Positions 1 through 4,520 of a DNA stretch of 44,363 bases are shown here, piece by piece. Source of the DNA: Lachnospiraceae bacterium (GTDB lineage Bacteria; Bacillota; Clostridia; Lachnospirales; Lachnospiraceae); the NCBI GenBank assembly GCA_017525525.1, contig JAFXSQ010000061.1, positions 1 through 44,363 on the forward strand, given 5' to 3'. The notes under the pieces were generated by a model. It had not been told where the DNA came from. It worked only from the letters and a program-made list of their open reading frames with translations, and ran no database searches. The position numbers and the translations under genes were made by a program. Positions within the stretch are counted from its first letter, which is position 1, and the number at the start of each line of letters is the position of its first letter.

Positions 1-47
1 CCATCTGTCATCTGAACTTTGTGTACGTTTTTCTTTTCTCTTGCCAT
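1..47 (-). CDS. IS256-family (Mutator-type) transposase, N-terminal fragment cut by window edge
   Basis: Fifteen complete codons on the minus strand, starting ATG at 47 and running off the left edge. A GGAGG ribosome site lies about 6 bases upstream. The start MAREKKNVHKVQMTDG matches, from memory, the N-terminus of IS256/Mutator-type transposases common in Clostridia. The flanking DNA to 140 looks like an IS256-type terminal repeat, which supports the call. Only the extreme N-terminus is visible, so no catalytic residue can be checked. Confidence 0.6.
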   Translation of the reverse strand, partial: MAREKKNVHKVQMTD

Positions 48-140
48 AATAAAGGCCTCCTTAAAGTATTTATATTTTACCTTAGGAGACCTTAATAATA
101 CATAACTATTATATTTTTACAGACTTTTTTTCACAGACTC
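1..140 (-). mobile_element. End of an IS256-type insertion sequence
   Basis: The stretch between the transposase start and position 140 has no gene. Read on the minus strand from 140 it begins GAGTCTGTGAAAAAAAGTC, the style of terminal repeat seen in IS256-type elements (start near GAG, then a poly-A run). It abuts the left inverted repeat of the next transposon at 141. The other end of this element is outside the window, so the terminal repeat could not be paired. Confidence 0.55.
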
Positions 141-164
141 GCTCTGTCACATTTGATGGTTGAT
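141..164 (+). repeat. Left terminal inverted repeat of the IS1595-type transposon
   Basis: Begins GCTCTGTC, then four variable bases, then TTGATGGTTGAT. It pairs with 4079-4102 (reverse complement) at 21 of 24 positions. The right copy has one further outer G (4103 is C on the plus strand) that is missing here, where the IS256-type end begins at 140. Confidence 0.85.
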
Positions 165-327
165 AATCTATCTTAAAAAAAAGATAAGTAACCATTGGTT
201 TCTTATTTGTTATATCCTCACCCTCAACGGATTTGGTTTTCGTGAGGGTGGAGAAATTATAATTGGTCTGTCACATTGTTTATCATTTAGAAACACTTTT
301 ATAGTAGTTGTTTTACAACTAACGATA

Positions 328-1086
328 TTATCTTTTATTTACAATAAATGGTAGTTGTCTAAAATCATCTGATTTATTCAAAACATCATACAGTTGTTTA
401 TAGAATGTATTTATCTTATTAAACACGGACTGTAAAACATCATAACTAATGTTTATTCCATACATTTTTAATAATTCTTCATGTTCATTTGATATTACTT
501 CAAAAATAGGAAATGTAGTATAAAATTGTTCAGCCTTTCTACACAAATCACCTTCTGTATAAAAAATGCCCTCTTTTATATCTTTTTTCTGCTTGCTCAT
601 ATCAATATTATGATATTCTATTTCTGTATAGTCATTTAAGATATGTTTATACATCCTCTCTAATGATTTACTATTGGGGTAAGCAGTTCTGATATAATTG
701 TAATCAAATAAATATGTGGACTTAACTAACATTTGATTATCTTGAATATATTTATACTTAACTAAGAATTGTAAAACAATATATTCTATACATGGAATTG
801 GAATTATCATAACATTATTAGCATAGCCATCCATTCCTTGTACTTTGTCATATAATTGCCAATATCCATTTGTTACATCCACATTTTCAGGTGAGTAATC
901 ATAATATATGCAGTAATTATGTGATGTATCATACCATTTCTTTAACTCCTTAAACAATCTTCCATTACCATTTGCAAAGTGAATATTGTTTTTATTATAT
1001 GAATGTTGAGTTAAGAGTTTTGATGTAACCATATTAGTATTATCTTCAAAGATGAAGATTATATTTTGTATTGTATTATCACTCAA
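328..1086 (-). CDS. Cargo protein, possible TOPRIM-like fold (function unknown)
   Basis: About 252 residues, the last gene of the cassette. I choose TTG at 1086: a GGAGG sits 9 bases upstream and the start overlaps the stop of the ATPase gene by 8 bases. The only upstream ATG (1140) lies deep inside the ATPase gene and has no ribosome site. The N-terminus has a hydrophobic strand ending FED (IIFIFED), then GNGRLFKEL, then a second strand YCIYYDYSPEN. A Glu after the first strand and an Asp after a later one is the arrangement of TOPRIM nuclease/topoisomerase folds, and ATPase plus TOPRIM pairs occur in defence systems such as PARIS and Gabija. The assignment is inference; a structure prediction would be decisive. 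The rest is Tyr/Lys/Asn-rich with no motif I recognise. Confidence 0.7.
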   Translation of the reverse strand: MSDNTIQNIIFIFEDNTNMVTSKLLTQHSYNKNNIHFANGNGRLFKELKKWYDTSHNYCIYYDYSPENVDVTNGYWQLYDKVQGMDGYANNVMIIPIPCIEYIVLQFLVKYKYIQDNQMLVKSTYLFDYNYIRTAYPNSKSLERMYKHILNDYTEIEYHNIDMSKQKKDIKEGIFYTEGDLCRKAEQFYTTFPIFEVISNEHEELLKMYGINISYDVLQSVFNKINTFYKQLYDVLNKSDDFRQLPFIVNKR

Positions 1087-1471
1087 TGCGTTTAACCTCC
1101 ATCTTCTTATCAGTATAGTCAACTGAATACATACCAACATCCTTTATTCCTATCTTAGAATAATCTTTCAAACTAATTAAAATACAAGGACATTCTTTCA
1201 TAAATCTGGCTAACAATTCTTTTGAAATATATAAGTCAGCATTATCTAATAAAACTATACCTGCATCTTTACAGAAAGCAACCATATTATCCTCTGTGTT
1301 TTCAGTTTTGAAATCAAATAAGGCATTTTTTATTCCTTTTTCTTTACAGTAATGTTGAATAATCTCAAACAAAAAAGTTTTTCCTGAACCTGACATTCCA
1401 TATAAAAGATTAACATTATCTTTGAAATCTGCATTTACTTTAATTCCACTGTATTCATAATCAATCTTCAT
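1079..1471 (-). CDS. Small single-domain P-loop ATPase
   Basis: About 130 residues. Walker A is GMSGSGKT at residues 25-32. Walker B is IVLLDNAD at about 72-79, hydrophobic strand then Asp. The protein is much shorter than ordinary AAA or ABC ATPases and lacks room for an ABC signature or helical lid, so it probably works with a partner. Start chosen at ATG 1471, with GAGG 7 bases upstream; ATG 1477 and 1486 are alternatives. It overlaps the upstream gene by 11 bases and the downstream gene by 8, so the three proteins are probably made together. The Asp-Asn of Walker B replaces the usual Asp-Glu, so hydrolysis may be slow or need a partner. Confidence 0.8.
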   Translation of the reverse strand: MKIDYEYSGIKVNADFKDNVNLLYGMSGSGKTFLFEIIQHYCKEKGIKNALFDFKTENTEDNMVAFCKDAGIVLLDNADLYISKELLARFMKECPCILISLKDYSKIGIKDVGMYSVDYTDKKMEVKRIE

Positions 1472-1916
1472 CTTCATACCTCGCATAATTTAAGAACTCA
1501 TAAATATTAGTGAACTGCTTATCTTTATATACGATGTCACAACTTTCATCCTCATCTTCTGGAAACAAACTAATATGTTCCCATAATACTATTCCATCTT
1601 TTATCTTTGGAATAAAATCTAATACATTTATTCCACATTCAGCTAAATTAAAACATTTATCTGGATTTGAAATAATATTTAGTAATGTCTTAGTTCCTGA
1701 AGAAAGATAATTTTTGAATAAATTACCTAAATCTTTTGTTCTACTGGTAAATACTAATTCACTATAATAATCTGCCTTATCAACTTTTTTTAATATTTCC
1801 TTAGCAAGTGGTGTATCTGGAATAGTAGTTTTCTCATTAAAAAACAAATCATTACTATTTATATAATCTATTGTATCTGGTATTTCACTTTTATTTCTAA
1901 ATATAATTAAACTCAT
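1461..1916 (-). CDS. DUF4869-like protein
   Basis: 151 residues. The ATG at 1914-1916 overlaps the stop of the XRE gene (ATGA), and GGAGG lies 7 bases upstream. The central part follows the pattern I recall for DUF4869: LSSGTKTLLNI, then NPDKCFNLAECG, then a short Ile/Asp-rich stretch and LWEH. DUF4869 proteins are uncharacterised Clostridia proteins of about 150 residues. No signal peptide or membrane segment; the C-terminus is very acidic (ends YEDED). Its place between a repressor-like gene and an ATPase suggests a structural or sensing part of the cassette, which is inference. Confidence 0.7.
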   Translation of the reverse strand: MSLIIFRNKSEIPDTIDYINSNDLFFNEKTTIPDTPLAKEILKKVDKADYYSELVFTSRTKDLGNLFKNYLSSGTKTLLNIISNPDKCFNLAECGINVLDFIPKIKDGIVLWEHISLFPEDEDESCDIVYKDKQFTNIYEFLNYARYEDED

Positions 1917-2137
1917 TTTATGCCCTCCGATTTCTCATCTGTTTGTATTTCATTCATTTGCAAGACTGTATTTGCATAATCTAAATCTATTACCCGTTCC
2001 AATAGATATAGGACATACTCAGGTGTATTTCGCCAACCTTGTTCCCAACTCTGTACCTGTTTAGTGGTAAACTTATATTTTTTAGCAAACTGACTTTGTG
2101 ATAAGCCTGTTTTCATTCGTAGTTCTTTGATTGTCAT
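1913..2137 (-). CDS. XRE-family HTH regulator of the cargo cassette
   Basis: 74 residues from ATG 2137. It contains a helix-turn-helix: IKELRMKTGLSQSQFAKKY, then TTKQVQSWEQG, the classic Cro/CI form. An upstream in-frame ATG at 2173 falls between the -35 and -10 boxes of the promoter, so it cannot be on the message; this decides the start. GGAGG lies 11 bases before the ATG. It is the first gene of a four-gene overlapping unit. A palindrome inside its own promoter suggests autorepression. There is no peptidase or toxin domain fused to it. Confidence 0.85.
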   Translation of the reverse strand: MTIKELRMKTGLSQSQFAKKYKFTTKQVQSWEQGWRNTPEYVLYLLERVIDLDYANTVLQMNEIQTDEKSEGIK

Positions 2138-2161
2138 AAGTTCATAAACCTCCGCAGCCTC

Positions 2162-2190
2162 ACTATACCACAATGTAGTATATTTGTCAA
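2162..2190 (-). promoter_or_regulatory. Sigma-A promoter of the cargo cassette
   Basis: On the minus strand TTGACA (2185-2190) and TATAGT (2162-2167) are separated by exactly 17 bases, close to consensus. Transcription would start near 2155, just before the XRE ribosome site. Confidence 0.8.
2164..2182. promoter_or_regulatory. Probable operator: 19-bp palindrome in the promoter spacer
   Basis: TATACCACAATGTAGTATA is a near-perfect palindrome: arms of 9 bases with a single mismatch around a central A. It fills the spacer and overlaps the -10 box, an ideal place for an XRE dimer to block RNA polymerase. Binding by the product of 1913-2137 is inference from position. Confidence 0.6.
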
Positions 2191-2244
2191 GTAGAAATGT
2201 GGAGTTGATTTTTGAAATGTAATAAAGTGATTGATAATCTATAT

Positions 2245-2919
2245 TTATTCATTTGCCGTACCTAAGATTATTTGTTGTGTTCTGCTTGCTATATAATCAG
2301 AAGTCATATTCGCTAAAATCCACTCTGCTACATTATCATCTTCTGTTATTCCATAAATTGCATCAACTACTATACCGTCAATTTGTTCTGTATCATACTT
2401 CTCTACAGTAGCACAAATTATACTAATATCAGTACAAAATTTTAGCCATTCTTCTTTGTGTGAACGAAAATCTTCATAATCAACATCAGACTGCCATGAA
2501 TTTGTGAAAACTAATTCACTATATGTAGCAACTAAATCATCTGATAAAGCATATTCATTATCTCTTACATCAAGTAAATATCCTTCAAAGTATCCATACC
2601 CCTTACTTATTGCTTCTTCAAAATCATTAGTATCAACTGTAATAGGAACACTCGCTTCACTAATATCATTTTGCATTACTTTATCTGTATGTGCCTGTAA
2701 ATCATCTAATTCTGATTTCTTATCTATTATAGCTCTGTAAATTGTTATCCCTGTAATTCCACTTATTATTACTGTAAGCACTACAACAATGAAAATCTTT
2801 CCGCTTTTTGTTTTTCTTTTATTGTCAGTTGTAATCTGTTTCGTATTCTGCCATGCATTAGTAGTAGTTTCATTTGACTCTTCGTCAAACATCAACCAGT
2901 TATCATTTTCTTGTTTCAT
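2245..2919 (-). CDS. Single-pass membrane protein of the transposon, unknown function
   Basis: 224 residues. Start chosen at ATG 2919 because GGAGGTG lies just upstream; a longer frame to 2958 has no ribosome site. A hydrophilic N-terminal stretch of about 50 residues, rich in Asn and Thr, is followed by one membrane helix (IFIVVVLTVIISGITGITIY), then an acidic outer domain of about 150 residues. The N-terminus is likely cytoplasmic because Lys/Arg precede the helix. It has no recognisable domain. It sits between the transposase and the ATPase cassette, in its own transcription unit, and has the same AT-rich composition as the rest of the transposon. Confidence 0.7.
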   Translation of the reverse strand: MKQENDNWLMFDEESNETTTNAWQNTKQITTDNKRKTKSGKIFIVVVLTVIISGITGITIYRAIIDKKSELDDLQAHTDKVMQNDISEASVPITVDTNDFEEAISKGYGYFEGYLLDVRDNEYALSDDLVATYSELVFTNSWQSDVDYEDFRSHKEEWLKFCTDISIICATVEKYDTEQIDGIVVDAIYGITEDDNVAEWILANMTSDYIASRTQQIILGTANE

Positions 2920-2938
2920 GTAAAACACCTCCATAATC

Positions 2939-2959
2939 TTTGATACTAATAATATCAAA
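2939..2959. promoter_or_regulatory. Inverted repeat upstream of the membrane-protein gene
   Basis: Perfect 7-bp arms, TTTGATA (2939-2945) and TATCAAA (2953-2959), with a 7-base AT-rich centre. It lies between the transposase stop and the ribosome site at about 2930. It could be an operator or a small hairpin; no clear promoter could be fixed around it. Confidence 0.35.
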
Positions 2960-2971
2960 AACTATGATTGT

Positions 2972-4021
2972 CTACACGACAACTGGTAAAGGCGGTCTTT
3001 TAGGTATATCCTTGTACCGTATCTTGATACTTTTGCACATAACATAGGATAGAAAAATGCTCATCTTCTCCTTATATGTTTCATCTGCATAATTCACCAA
3101 ATTATTCCATACCAAATAGTTATTTAGGTACTTCGTTGATACACCTTTGAAACCATACATAAAAGACTTGAGAATACTATGGTAACTGTTAATGTGCTGA
3201 ATGTTGTAGATACCTCTTTTCGATTTTCCTGTTTCCAACTGAATGAGTTGTAAGTTATGTTCTCTTGAAAATTTGCGATATGCCTGCTCTTTATCTGTAC
3301 ATAGAGTGGAATTGCTTATGATTTGATTACCCAAAATAATATCTATGCAGTTGAAACTTACTTTACCAAGTTTACCAACCTTTGCTATTGATTTGCCTTT
3401 TCGATTTACGGCACACGGAACGCAAACTTGTTCATCAGAAAGACCTTTTTTCTTAATTGAATGTCCTCTGTGATGTGGTTCTCTCGGCATAACAAATGTT
3501 TTACTGTTCTTGTGATTCCCTTTATATGATACAGGAAAAAATGTTTCATCTGCTTCAACTATACCGCTTAATGATACATCATTCTGCATAAACTGTAATG
3601 CATCCAATACCTTATGCCGCCATGCAAACGCAGTATTCCTATGAATTTCACAAATTTGTGCTGTTTTTCGTACACTAAATCCATTCATCATACACTCAAT
3701 ATATTTTTTCCAAACTAACATATTTTTTCTTGTACCTGATGAAATAGAGTTAGTGTTTGCAGTAAATGATTTACCACAATCCCTACACAGAAATCTTTGT
3801 GCATTGTTTTTGGGTCTATGTCCATTTCTTACAATGTGTTTACTTTCACAGACAGGACATACCCACCCTTCTGCAAATCTTTCATTATTAACATAATCTA
3901 ACACACTTTTGGGATTAACTAACTGTTCATTTGATAAAATAGAAATGAGCCTATCAATGTAATCGGCTGACAAAGATTTGAGTAGGGTGAGTATTGTCTG
4001 AAACTTTTCAAGTTTCGTCAT
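2972..4021 (-). CDS. IS1595-family transposase (zinc ribbon, ISXO2-type DDE domain)
   Basis: 349 residues, intact. An N-terminal zinc ribbon has Cys 55, 58, 79 and 82 (CPVC and CRDC), followed by a helix-turn-helix region (SVRKTAQICEIHRNTAFAWRHK). The catalytic domain shows the first Asp in EADET (about D158), the second in LCTDKEQAY (about D243), and the motif HINSYHSILK near 276-285, where IS1595 enzymes carry Asn in place of the usual Glu. The later GVSTKYLNNYLVWNNL segment is typical of the family. A GGAGG precedes ATG 4021 by 9 bases. The gene ends close to the cargo and starts about 57 bp from the right inverted repeat. It looks functional. Confidence 0.92.
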   Translation of the reverse strand: MTKLEKFQTILTLLKSLSADYIDRLISILSNEQLVNPKSVLDYVNNERFAEGWVCPVCESKHIVRNGHRPKNNAQRFLCRDCGKSFTANTNSISSGTRKNMLVWKKYIECMMNGFSVRKTAQICEIHRNTAFAWRHKVLDALQFMQNDVSLSGIVEADETFFPVSYKGNHKNSKTFVMPREPHHRGHSIKKKGLSDEQVCVPCAVNRKGKSIAKVGKLGKVSFNCIDIILGNQIISNSTLCTDKEQAYRKFSREHNLQLIQLETGKSKRGIYNIQHINSYHSILKSFMYGFKGVSTKYLNNYLVWNNLVNYADETYKEKMSIFLSYVMCKSIKIRYKDIPKRPPLPVVV

Positions 4022-4078
4022 ACAACATCACCTCCGATTTATCGTTGTAATCTAGTGATATATCAGAGGTGGCTAAAA

Positions 4079-4102
4079 ATCAACCATCAATTAGGACAGA
4101 GC
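4079..4102 (-). repeat. Right terminal inverted repeat of the IS1595-type transposon
   Basis: Reverse complement begins GCTCTGTC, four bases, TTGATGGTTGAT, and pairs with 141-164. One more outer base (4103) extends it to GGCTCTGTC. DNA to the right changes to a higher GC content. Confidence 0.85.
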
Positions 4103-4180
4103 CAAACGGTTAATCCGGCACCGATCAATCAGACGGATCCGGGATAATAGAGGAACTATAGTGGAAAGGCGGGCAAAGGT

Positions 4181-4417
4181 ATGGATGAAAGTAATCAGAG
4201 ACGGAGCATAAAGAAGAACGACAATAAAGACCTTATATCCGAGAAGATACAATTAAAGGATCAGATGCTCGAACACGAGCGTGAAAGTCTGATTTAAGTA
4301 AGCCAAGAGAATATCATACTCGAGAAGGATAACGATGAAGAGCTTGGGAATCTGGGCAAGCATTCCGATGCCAAGAGGAAGCTTCTGCTGGAGAATATAC
4401 CTGTTGGGGATGAGTGA
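4181..4417 (+). pseudogene. Small charged protein gene with an in-frame stop
   Basis: A frame starting ATG 4181, with GGCGGG 7 to 8 bases upstream, reads 38 codons to a TAA at 4295-4297. The same frame then continues open for 39 more codons to TGA at 4415-4417. Both halves are highly charged and of one style (LISEKIQLKDQMLEHERESL, then SQENIILEKDNDEELGNL), so a single nonsense change in a roughly 78-codon gene is the simplest reading. No family recognised. It sits just right of the transposon, and its start may have been lost or moved by the insertion. Confidence 0.4.
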
Positions 4418-4452
4418 GATTTAGCCAGACGTTTTTAGTGAAAAAGATAGAT

Positions 4453-4490
4453 TTTTACAAGTAATAGTGTTATACTTTTCGCTTGTAAAA
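4453..4490 (+). promoter_or_regulatory. Inverted repeat and weak promoter before the DUF4234 gene
   Basis: TTTTACAAG (4453-4461) and CTTGTAAAA (4482-4490) are perfect 9-bp arms. Between them lies TATACT (4471-4476), a good -10 box; the -35 hexamer 17 bases upstream (TAGATT) is poor. The arms may be a regulator site framing the -10 box. Confidence 0.35.
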
Positions 4491-4520
4491 GATACTGAAT
4501 ATAAAAAAGGAGGATTTTTT

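Follow-up and report, generated by a model that had tools for sequence, protein, structure and literature searches.

The contig JAFXSQ010000061.1 (44,363 nt; analysed at full length and called the window below) of a Lachnospiraceae bacterium (assembly GCA_017525525.1) carries three adjacent genes for a DUF4869 protein (D), a 130 amino acid (aa) P-loop ATPase (A) and a 252 aa TOPRIM-like protein (T). These three genes are the core of a unit, D-A-T, whose gene order recurs in dozens of loci, more than chance would produce. A has the Walker A and Walker B motifs of an ATP-binding cassette (ABC) ATPase and D has the signature motif. Because the signature is found in D only, Walker A in A only, and the signature of ABC ATPases acts in trans, D and A are most likely the two parts of a single split ABC ATPase, which controls T. 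D-A-T recurs in gut bacteria, on chromosomes, on plasmids and here on a transposon, and we consider it somewhat more probable than not that it is a split relative of the ATPase-nucleases OLD and PARIS. The literature searched for DUF4869 and for split ABC ATPases yielded no description of such an arrangement.

Recurrence of the three genes

To survey the split form, 84,980 species genomes were scanned with a five-row DUF4869 profile. Because the scan used S[ST]G[TC]KTL[LI]N as its peptide pattern, the conservation of this motif among the 72 D loci obtained is partly given by construction. The loci are labelled mostly as Lachnospiraceae or other Clostridia. D is full in 66 of them, with 51 groups at <93% similarity. 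Profiles made from these loci show a full A in 66 of the 71 assessable D loci (one locus runs off its contig). T was assessable in 69 loci (three run off their contigs): 43 have it in full and 19 in part, and in 7 it was undetected. At least one locus counted as lacking T, L029, holds a piece of it that the profile missed (same operon as L012). In L037 and L085, T precedes D. As a lone tblastn query against genome contigs, A gave no match. A neighbourhood search for DUF4869 with small ATPases had been proposed in a first-pass annotation of the window, and the 66 of 71 loci with a full A bear out this co-occurrence. In L022, DUF4869 was seen without an ATPase, followed by a helix-turn-helix-like gene and an AbiEii-like nucleotidyltransferase gene (by eye). 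A DUF4869 match in a 3711 aa frame (L021) was dropped because it scores below the cut-off and belongs to a repeat protein.

The first-pass annotation had described a four-gene cassette, with an XRE regulator as fourth member. All four genes are real, lie on the minus strand and share 4, 11 and 8 bases with their neighbours, exactly as claimed. The recurring unit, however, is taken to comprise three genes, since relatives of the XRE gene were found in only two of 102 loci (L023-L094 and L125-L154, searched by tblastn; many are only 3-4 kb long). In L072, the relative lies 2.7 kb upstream of D; in L135, it directly follows a fused A-T gene. Thus, XRE is apparently a local addition in the window. 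The position in L135 (2538-2672) suggests that a regulator may join the set occasionally.

In the fused form, A and T are a single protein. The genome from which the window derives carries three D-A-T systems: the split one in the window, a fused one on another contig, where DUF4869 is followed by a 321 aa protein composed of A and T, and a third, divergent split operon on contig C62 (G000:C62, L167:1605-3197), whose D scores below the Pfam cut-off for DUF4869. The T of this third operon has a zinc-ribbon-like CxxC..CxxC at its C-terminus and an N-terminal ICEGPEN that is TOPRIM-motif-like by eye. Contig C74 contains a remnant of a fused system. Among 299 genomes of the same family, 44 matched the fused protein at E ≤1e-3, 33 of them at E ≤1e-20. 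In all 30 loci examined, D adjoins the fused gene, 29 times upstream and once downstream; in a few of them, the fused gene is broken. Profile comparison relates the split and fused forms for all three components (E 1.4e-16 for D, 3.5e-16 for A and 2.1e-7 for T).

On plasmids of Ruminococcus albus, Agathobacter rectalis and Collinsella aerofaciens, the fused form is located beside an annotated DUF4869 gene. A DUF4869 query found no match in plasmids, and neither DUF4869 (A1) nor the fused protein (L001) matched viral contigs when used as a query. A profile of the fused protein matched one viral contig with D alongside. In phage records, the DUF4869 query had one match and the fused protein five, all of them unverified faecal contigs. 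D, recognized by its motif, stands beside the fused protein in all three of these five contigs that were examined, one of which was also found via D. In a phage-labelled faecal contig, L209 (MT835722.1), which is probably a bacterial fragment, DUF4869 and the fused protein lie ~2.5 kb from a Cas3-like open reading frame (ORF; by eye).

D and A as probable halves of one ABC ATPase

D belongs to the Pfam family DUF4869 (PF16163): it scores 43.9 bits against a gathering cut-off of 28.9 (E 2.6e-11). Pfam lists DUF4869 as a domain of unknown function, and the word is absent from the literature searched. The first-pass annotation had called D a DUF4869-like, uncharacterised partner. The family assignment is correct, but D is no mere bystander, as it resembles the missing half of the ATPase. 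Its structure is predicted with confidence (predicted local distance difference test, pLDDT, 95.9). The best 50 of 257 Foldseek matches are all ABC ATPase entries, each of them weak, and the individually weak fold matches include AriA of PARIS. As in ABC ATPases, the signature of D (L71-S-S-G-T-K-T77) is placed where a helix begins (residues 73-83 of the model). Against an ABCF signature profile, D scored 31.0, the best shuffle 22.6. Walker A is found in none of 66 D proteins of the split and none of 35 of the fused form. Neither D nor T gave meaningful matches in sequence searches of the PDB.

A provides what D lacks. S..GK[ST] is present in all 66 split A proteins and a strict P-loop in 64. 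An ABC signature occurs in none of them; among 28 fused proteins, a loose signature pattern was found in three, as ISSGGK and within the T part. By pattern, Walker B ends in DN in 63 of the 66 split A proteins. The catalytic Glu position that follows is occupied by Asn in the A of the window and by Glu in one of the 66. In fused A, DE is retained in 22 of 28 cases. Two separate stretches of A align to AriA-like proteins, one at Walker A (E 5e-8) and one beginning at Walker B (E 7e-4, without shuffle control). The part that bears the signature is skipped. In ABC ATPases, signature and D-loop act in trans across the dimer (excerpt of PMC7049728), and a division between two proteins is therefore workable. 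The same excerpt reports that class 1 OLD proteins have a degenerate signature and that a class 2 member has none.

The TOPRIM-like protein T

As the first-pass annotation had suggested, the structure of T was predicted, and the model has a TOPRIM-like Rossmannoid fold. Its pLDDT is 73 overall and 74-95 in blocks over residues 11-110. The model comprises a four-stranded β-α-β-α core with E14 behind strand 9-13 (β1). The top Foldseek match is the TOPRIM domain of OLD, at a weak E of 0.42. A comparison with viral predicted structures gave no clear match, with a few TOPRIM primases among the weak ones. Residues E14, D15, D63, E101 and E143 are invariant in all 34 aligned rows. Behind β4, all 39 split T have [C/S]xE and all 28 fused T have [CST]FE; of the 34 aligned split T, 33 begin this motif with Cys instead of Ser or Thr. 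At the β3 motif, fused T reads DGAA in 27 of 28 cases. Split T does not match known TOPRIM profiles significantly. When fused T was compared with TOPRIM profiles, its score was reached by 0 of 100 shuffles with ten TOPRIMs and by 8 of 100 with six. Judged by its predicted fold and these motifs, T likely resembles the nuclease of OLD and PARIS defence proteins and is a candidate nuclease. Four relatives (L026, L027, L033, L048) have a Cys-rich stretch at the C-terminus of T, which is not present in the T of the window.

Comparison with OLD and PARIS

PARIS consists of the ABC ATPase AriA and the TOPRIM nuclease AriB and belongs to class 4 of the OLD proteins; its two genes are adjacent and sometimes fused (excerpt of PMC10568477). 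D-A-T shares the neighbouring genes for ATPase and TOPRIM protein, and AriA is the best PADLOC match of A (E 2.7e-7), which supports the earlier impression that a small ATPase beside a TOPRIM-like protein recalls ATPase-nuclease defence pairs. In contrast to AriA, which is a single ABC protein, D-A-T has the Walker and signature parts on separate proteins. Furthermore, AriB has a TOPRIM domain of the DUF4435 type, whereas T has no match to DUF4435 at E ≤1 (window) or E ≤10 (T-containing proteins of eight relatives).

The OLD nucleases (Old, GajA, the OLD protein of retron Eco8) resemble the fused form in their order, ATPase followed by TOPRIM. They resemble T in a Glu at β1, an Asp at β3 and SxE behind β4; S/T-x-E behind β4 is the metal-B motif of OLD (excerpt of PMC7049728). 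However, OLD proteins have their ABC domain within one chain, whereas in D-A-T it is split and accompanied by DUF4869. A full ABC ATPase and a TOPRIM domain in one chain, as in OLD, were not found: either all proteins are separate, or the A-T fusion is devoid of the signature half. The five longest OLD-like proteins compared have 521-690 aa, fused A-T has ~325 aa.

The transposon and the promoter in the window

In the window, D-A-T is cargo of an IS1595-type transposon (Table 1). The terminal repeats match at 21 of 25 positions; none of 500 shuffles was as good, and the next best site reached 14. The G+C content amounts to 30.0% in the element, 27.1% in the cassette and 48.7% in the window right of the element. 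An 8-bp target duplication is not present at the element, whose flanks are CACAGACT and AAACGGTT. A related element in genome G481 (L205:1-1725) is 1725 bp long, occurs in three copies and encodes a transposase with 58% identity. The element is MTnSag1-like; its cargo includes a gene that matches lnu(C) and differs from that of the window. In G481, contigs C19 and C32 presumably hold the two sides of a single insertion, whose flanks AACATTTA show an 8-bp duplication. MTnSag1, which carries lnu(C), and tISCpe8 are small mobilisable IS1595-type elements that share with the window element an IS1595 transposase, 25-bp inverted repeats and a cargo (excerpt of PMC5704250). The window element differs from them in its cargo (D-A-T, XRE and a 237 aa ORF), its size (3.96 kb compared to 1.7-2.0 kb) and the target duplication, of which none is seen here. 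Just past the end of T, GGTCTGTCACATTGTTTATCATTT at 265-288 resembles the terminal repeat once more. A hairpin, CACCCTCA...TGAGGGTG, is located at 219-250 between T and the left end of the transposon.

The four genes had been predicted to start from one strong promoter with a built-in operator. Indeed, the promoter upstream of XRE is the sole site with 11 of 12 consensus bases in positions 1-4500, where promoter-like sites overall are at chance level (27 found, 29.0 expected). The inverted repeat across it is a plausible candidate operator, and XRE likely is an autoregulator of its own promoter, as far as the sequence indicates. The longer XRE frame (1913-2173) matches Pfam HTH_3 (E 4.9e-6); its alternative start, TTG at 2173, is located upstream of the -10 box, and hence the ATG was used.

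Table 1. Features of the transposon and its cargo in the window
Feature	Positions	Strand	Remarks
IS1595-type transposon with cassette	140-4103		transposase and matching terminal inverted repeats
Left terminal inverted repeat	140-164	+	21/25 match to right end
T, TOPRIM-like, 252 aa, candidate nuclease effector	328-1086	-	TTG start behind GGAGG
A, P-loop ATPase half, 130 aa; Walker A GMSGSGKT, Walker B LLDNAD, no ABC signature	1079-1471	-	
D, DUF4869, ABC-like half; signature LSSGTKT and CGxN, no Walker A	1461-1916	-	
XRE (HTH_3) regulator	1913-2137	-	ATG start
Sigma-70-type promoter TTGACA-17-TATAGT, extended TG	2162-2190	-	11/12 consensus bases
Operator-like imperfect inverted repeat ATACTAC-ATT-GTGGTAT over spacer and -10	2165-2181	-	by eye, not scored against chance
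237 aa ORF, cargo between transposase and cassette; one hydrophobic stretch by eye	2245-2958	-	no convincing family match
IS1595-family transposase	2972-4021	-	NF033547, E 1.3e-52, above cut-off
Right terminal inverted repeat GGCTCTGTCCTAATTGATGGTTGAT	4079-4103	-	first nine bases as in multi-copy relative of G481

Function and alternative explanations

The best reading of the function, and a plausible one, is a split OLD/PARIS-like ATPase-nuclease that serves defence. A would bind ATP by its Walker motifs. D, which is devoid of a P-loop, would dock on A and present its LSSGxKT signature and ECGxN loop in trans to the nucleotide bound by A; the single ATP site would exist only in the A-D pair. 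This complex would hold or gate T, with A and T being one chain in the fused form. A signal arising from infection would shift the ATP state and free or activate T, which would cut DNA or tRNA and thereby arrest the cell or the growth of the phage. In the window, XRE would repress its own promoter and keep the dose low, and the IS1595 transposon would move the set. The estimate given at the outset, somewhat above an even chance, covers the split ABC ATPase coupled to a TOPRIM-like nuclease together with gating and the defence mechanism. Slightly short of an even chance is our estimate for the full proposal: a natural ABC-type ATPase in two proteins, with Walker A and B in one and only the signature and a D-loop-like motif in DUF4869, whose composite ATP site controls a nuclease, the whole being a widespread phage-defence system not described before. 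A role in defence fits the patchy spread, the mobile carriers and the frequent loss of T but is not proved by them. In a defence-island test, the nearest and the distant genes of 33 loci were compared with PADLOC models at E ≤1e-15. The 132 nearest genes matched at least 191 models, many of which overlap, so that genes cannot be counted; type I and IIG restriction, Cas1/Cas3 and AbiEi are among the matches listed. For the 131 distant genes, at least 73 models, many likewise overlapping, were matched, among those listed Csm3, Qat, Wadjet and a type I methylase, and no enrichment is claimed. One far gene was excluded as it was also near, and L053:14392-15462 was counted in both sets.

Some results weigh against a split ATPase with an OLD-like nuclease. 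The DxD behind β3 of T is incomplete, with D63 in 34 of 34 rows and an Asp two positions further on in 0 of 34, in which T differs from OLD. In addition, D beat all shuffles also in the comparison with response regulators, a negative control. The latter result, the weak individual fold scores of D and the rarity of the catalytic Glu behind Walker B of split A would be expected if D were only distantly ABC-like, an adaptor or recognition subunit with a convergent LSSG, and A a self-sufficient minimal P-loop switch. We regard this as unlikely, though to be taken seriously: the 50 best fold matches of D are without exception ABC entries, its ABCF signature alignment is well above the shuffles, the motifs are complementary (0 of 66 compared to 66 of 66), and D accompanies the fused protein at each of the 30 loci examined.

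The main functional rival of defence is an addiction-type role. Here, T would be a toxin and A with D a neutralizer or sensor pair, and the toxin-antitoxin-like module would be kept by addiction or for the stability of an element instead of for phage defence. Of 69 assessable loci, 26 have a broken T or none, whereas 66 of 71 have a full A, as would be expected of a harmful T; furthermore, the set travels as cargo of a transposon and on plasmids, and the window has an XRE-type regulator. However, decay of the last gene alone could explain the loss of T, the T piece in L029 lowers the number of true losses, and a fusion of A and T would be unusual for a toxin and its antitoxin. This role, which can coexist with a split ATPase-nuclease, seems improbable to us. 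We consider it very improbable that the transposon encodes the set as a helper or for the stability of the IS1595 element, the transposon-helper reading of the first-pass annotation. The cassette does sit between the inverted repeats of the element, but tblastn found relatives of the transposase and of the 237 aa ORF in none of the 102 loci (many of them short, see above), and the related G481 element bears a different cargo.

Implications

If D and A indeed form a split ATPase that controls T, DUF4869 would obtain a role, and the OLD/PARIS ATPase-nucleases would gain a three-protein branch. D-A-T would furthermore be a natural example of an ABC ATPase with its trans-acting signature on a protein of its own, and ATP gating could be dissected by adding or omitting one subunit.
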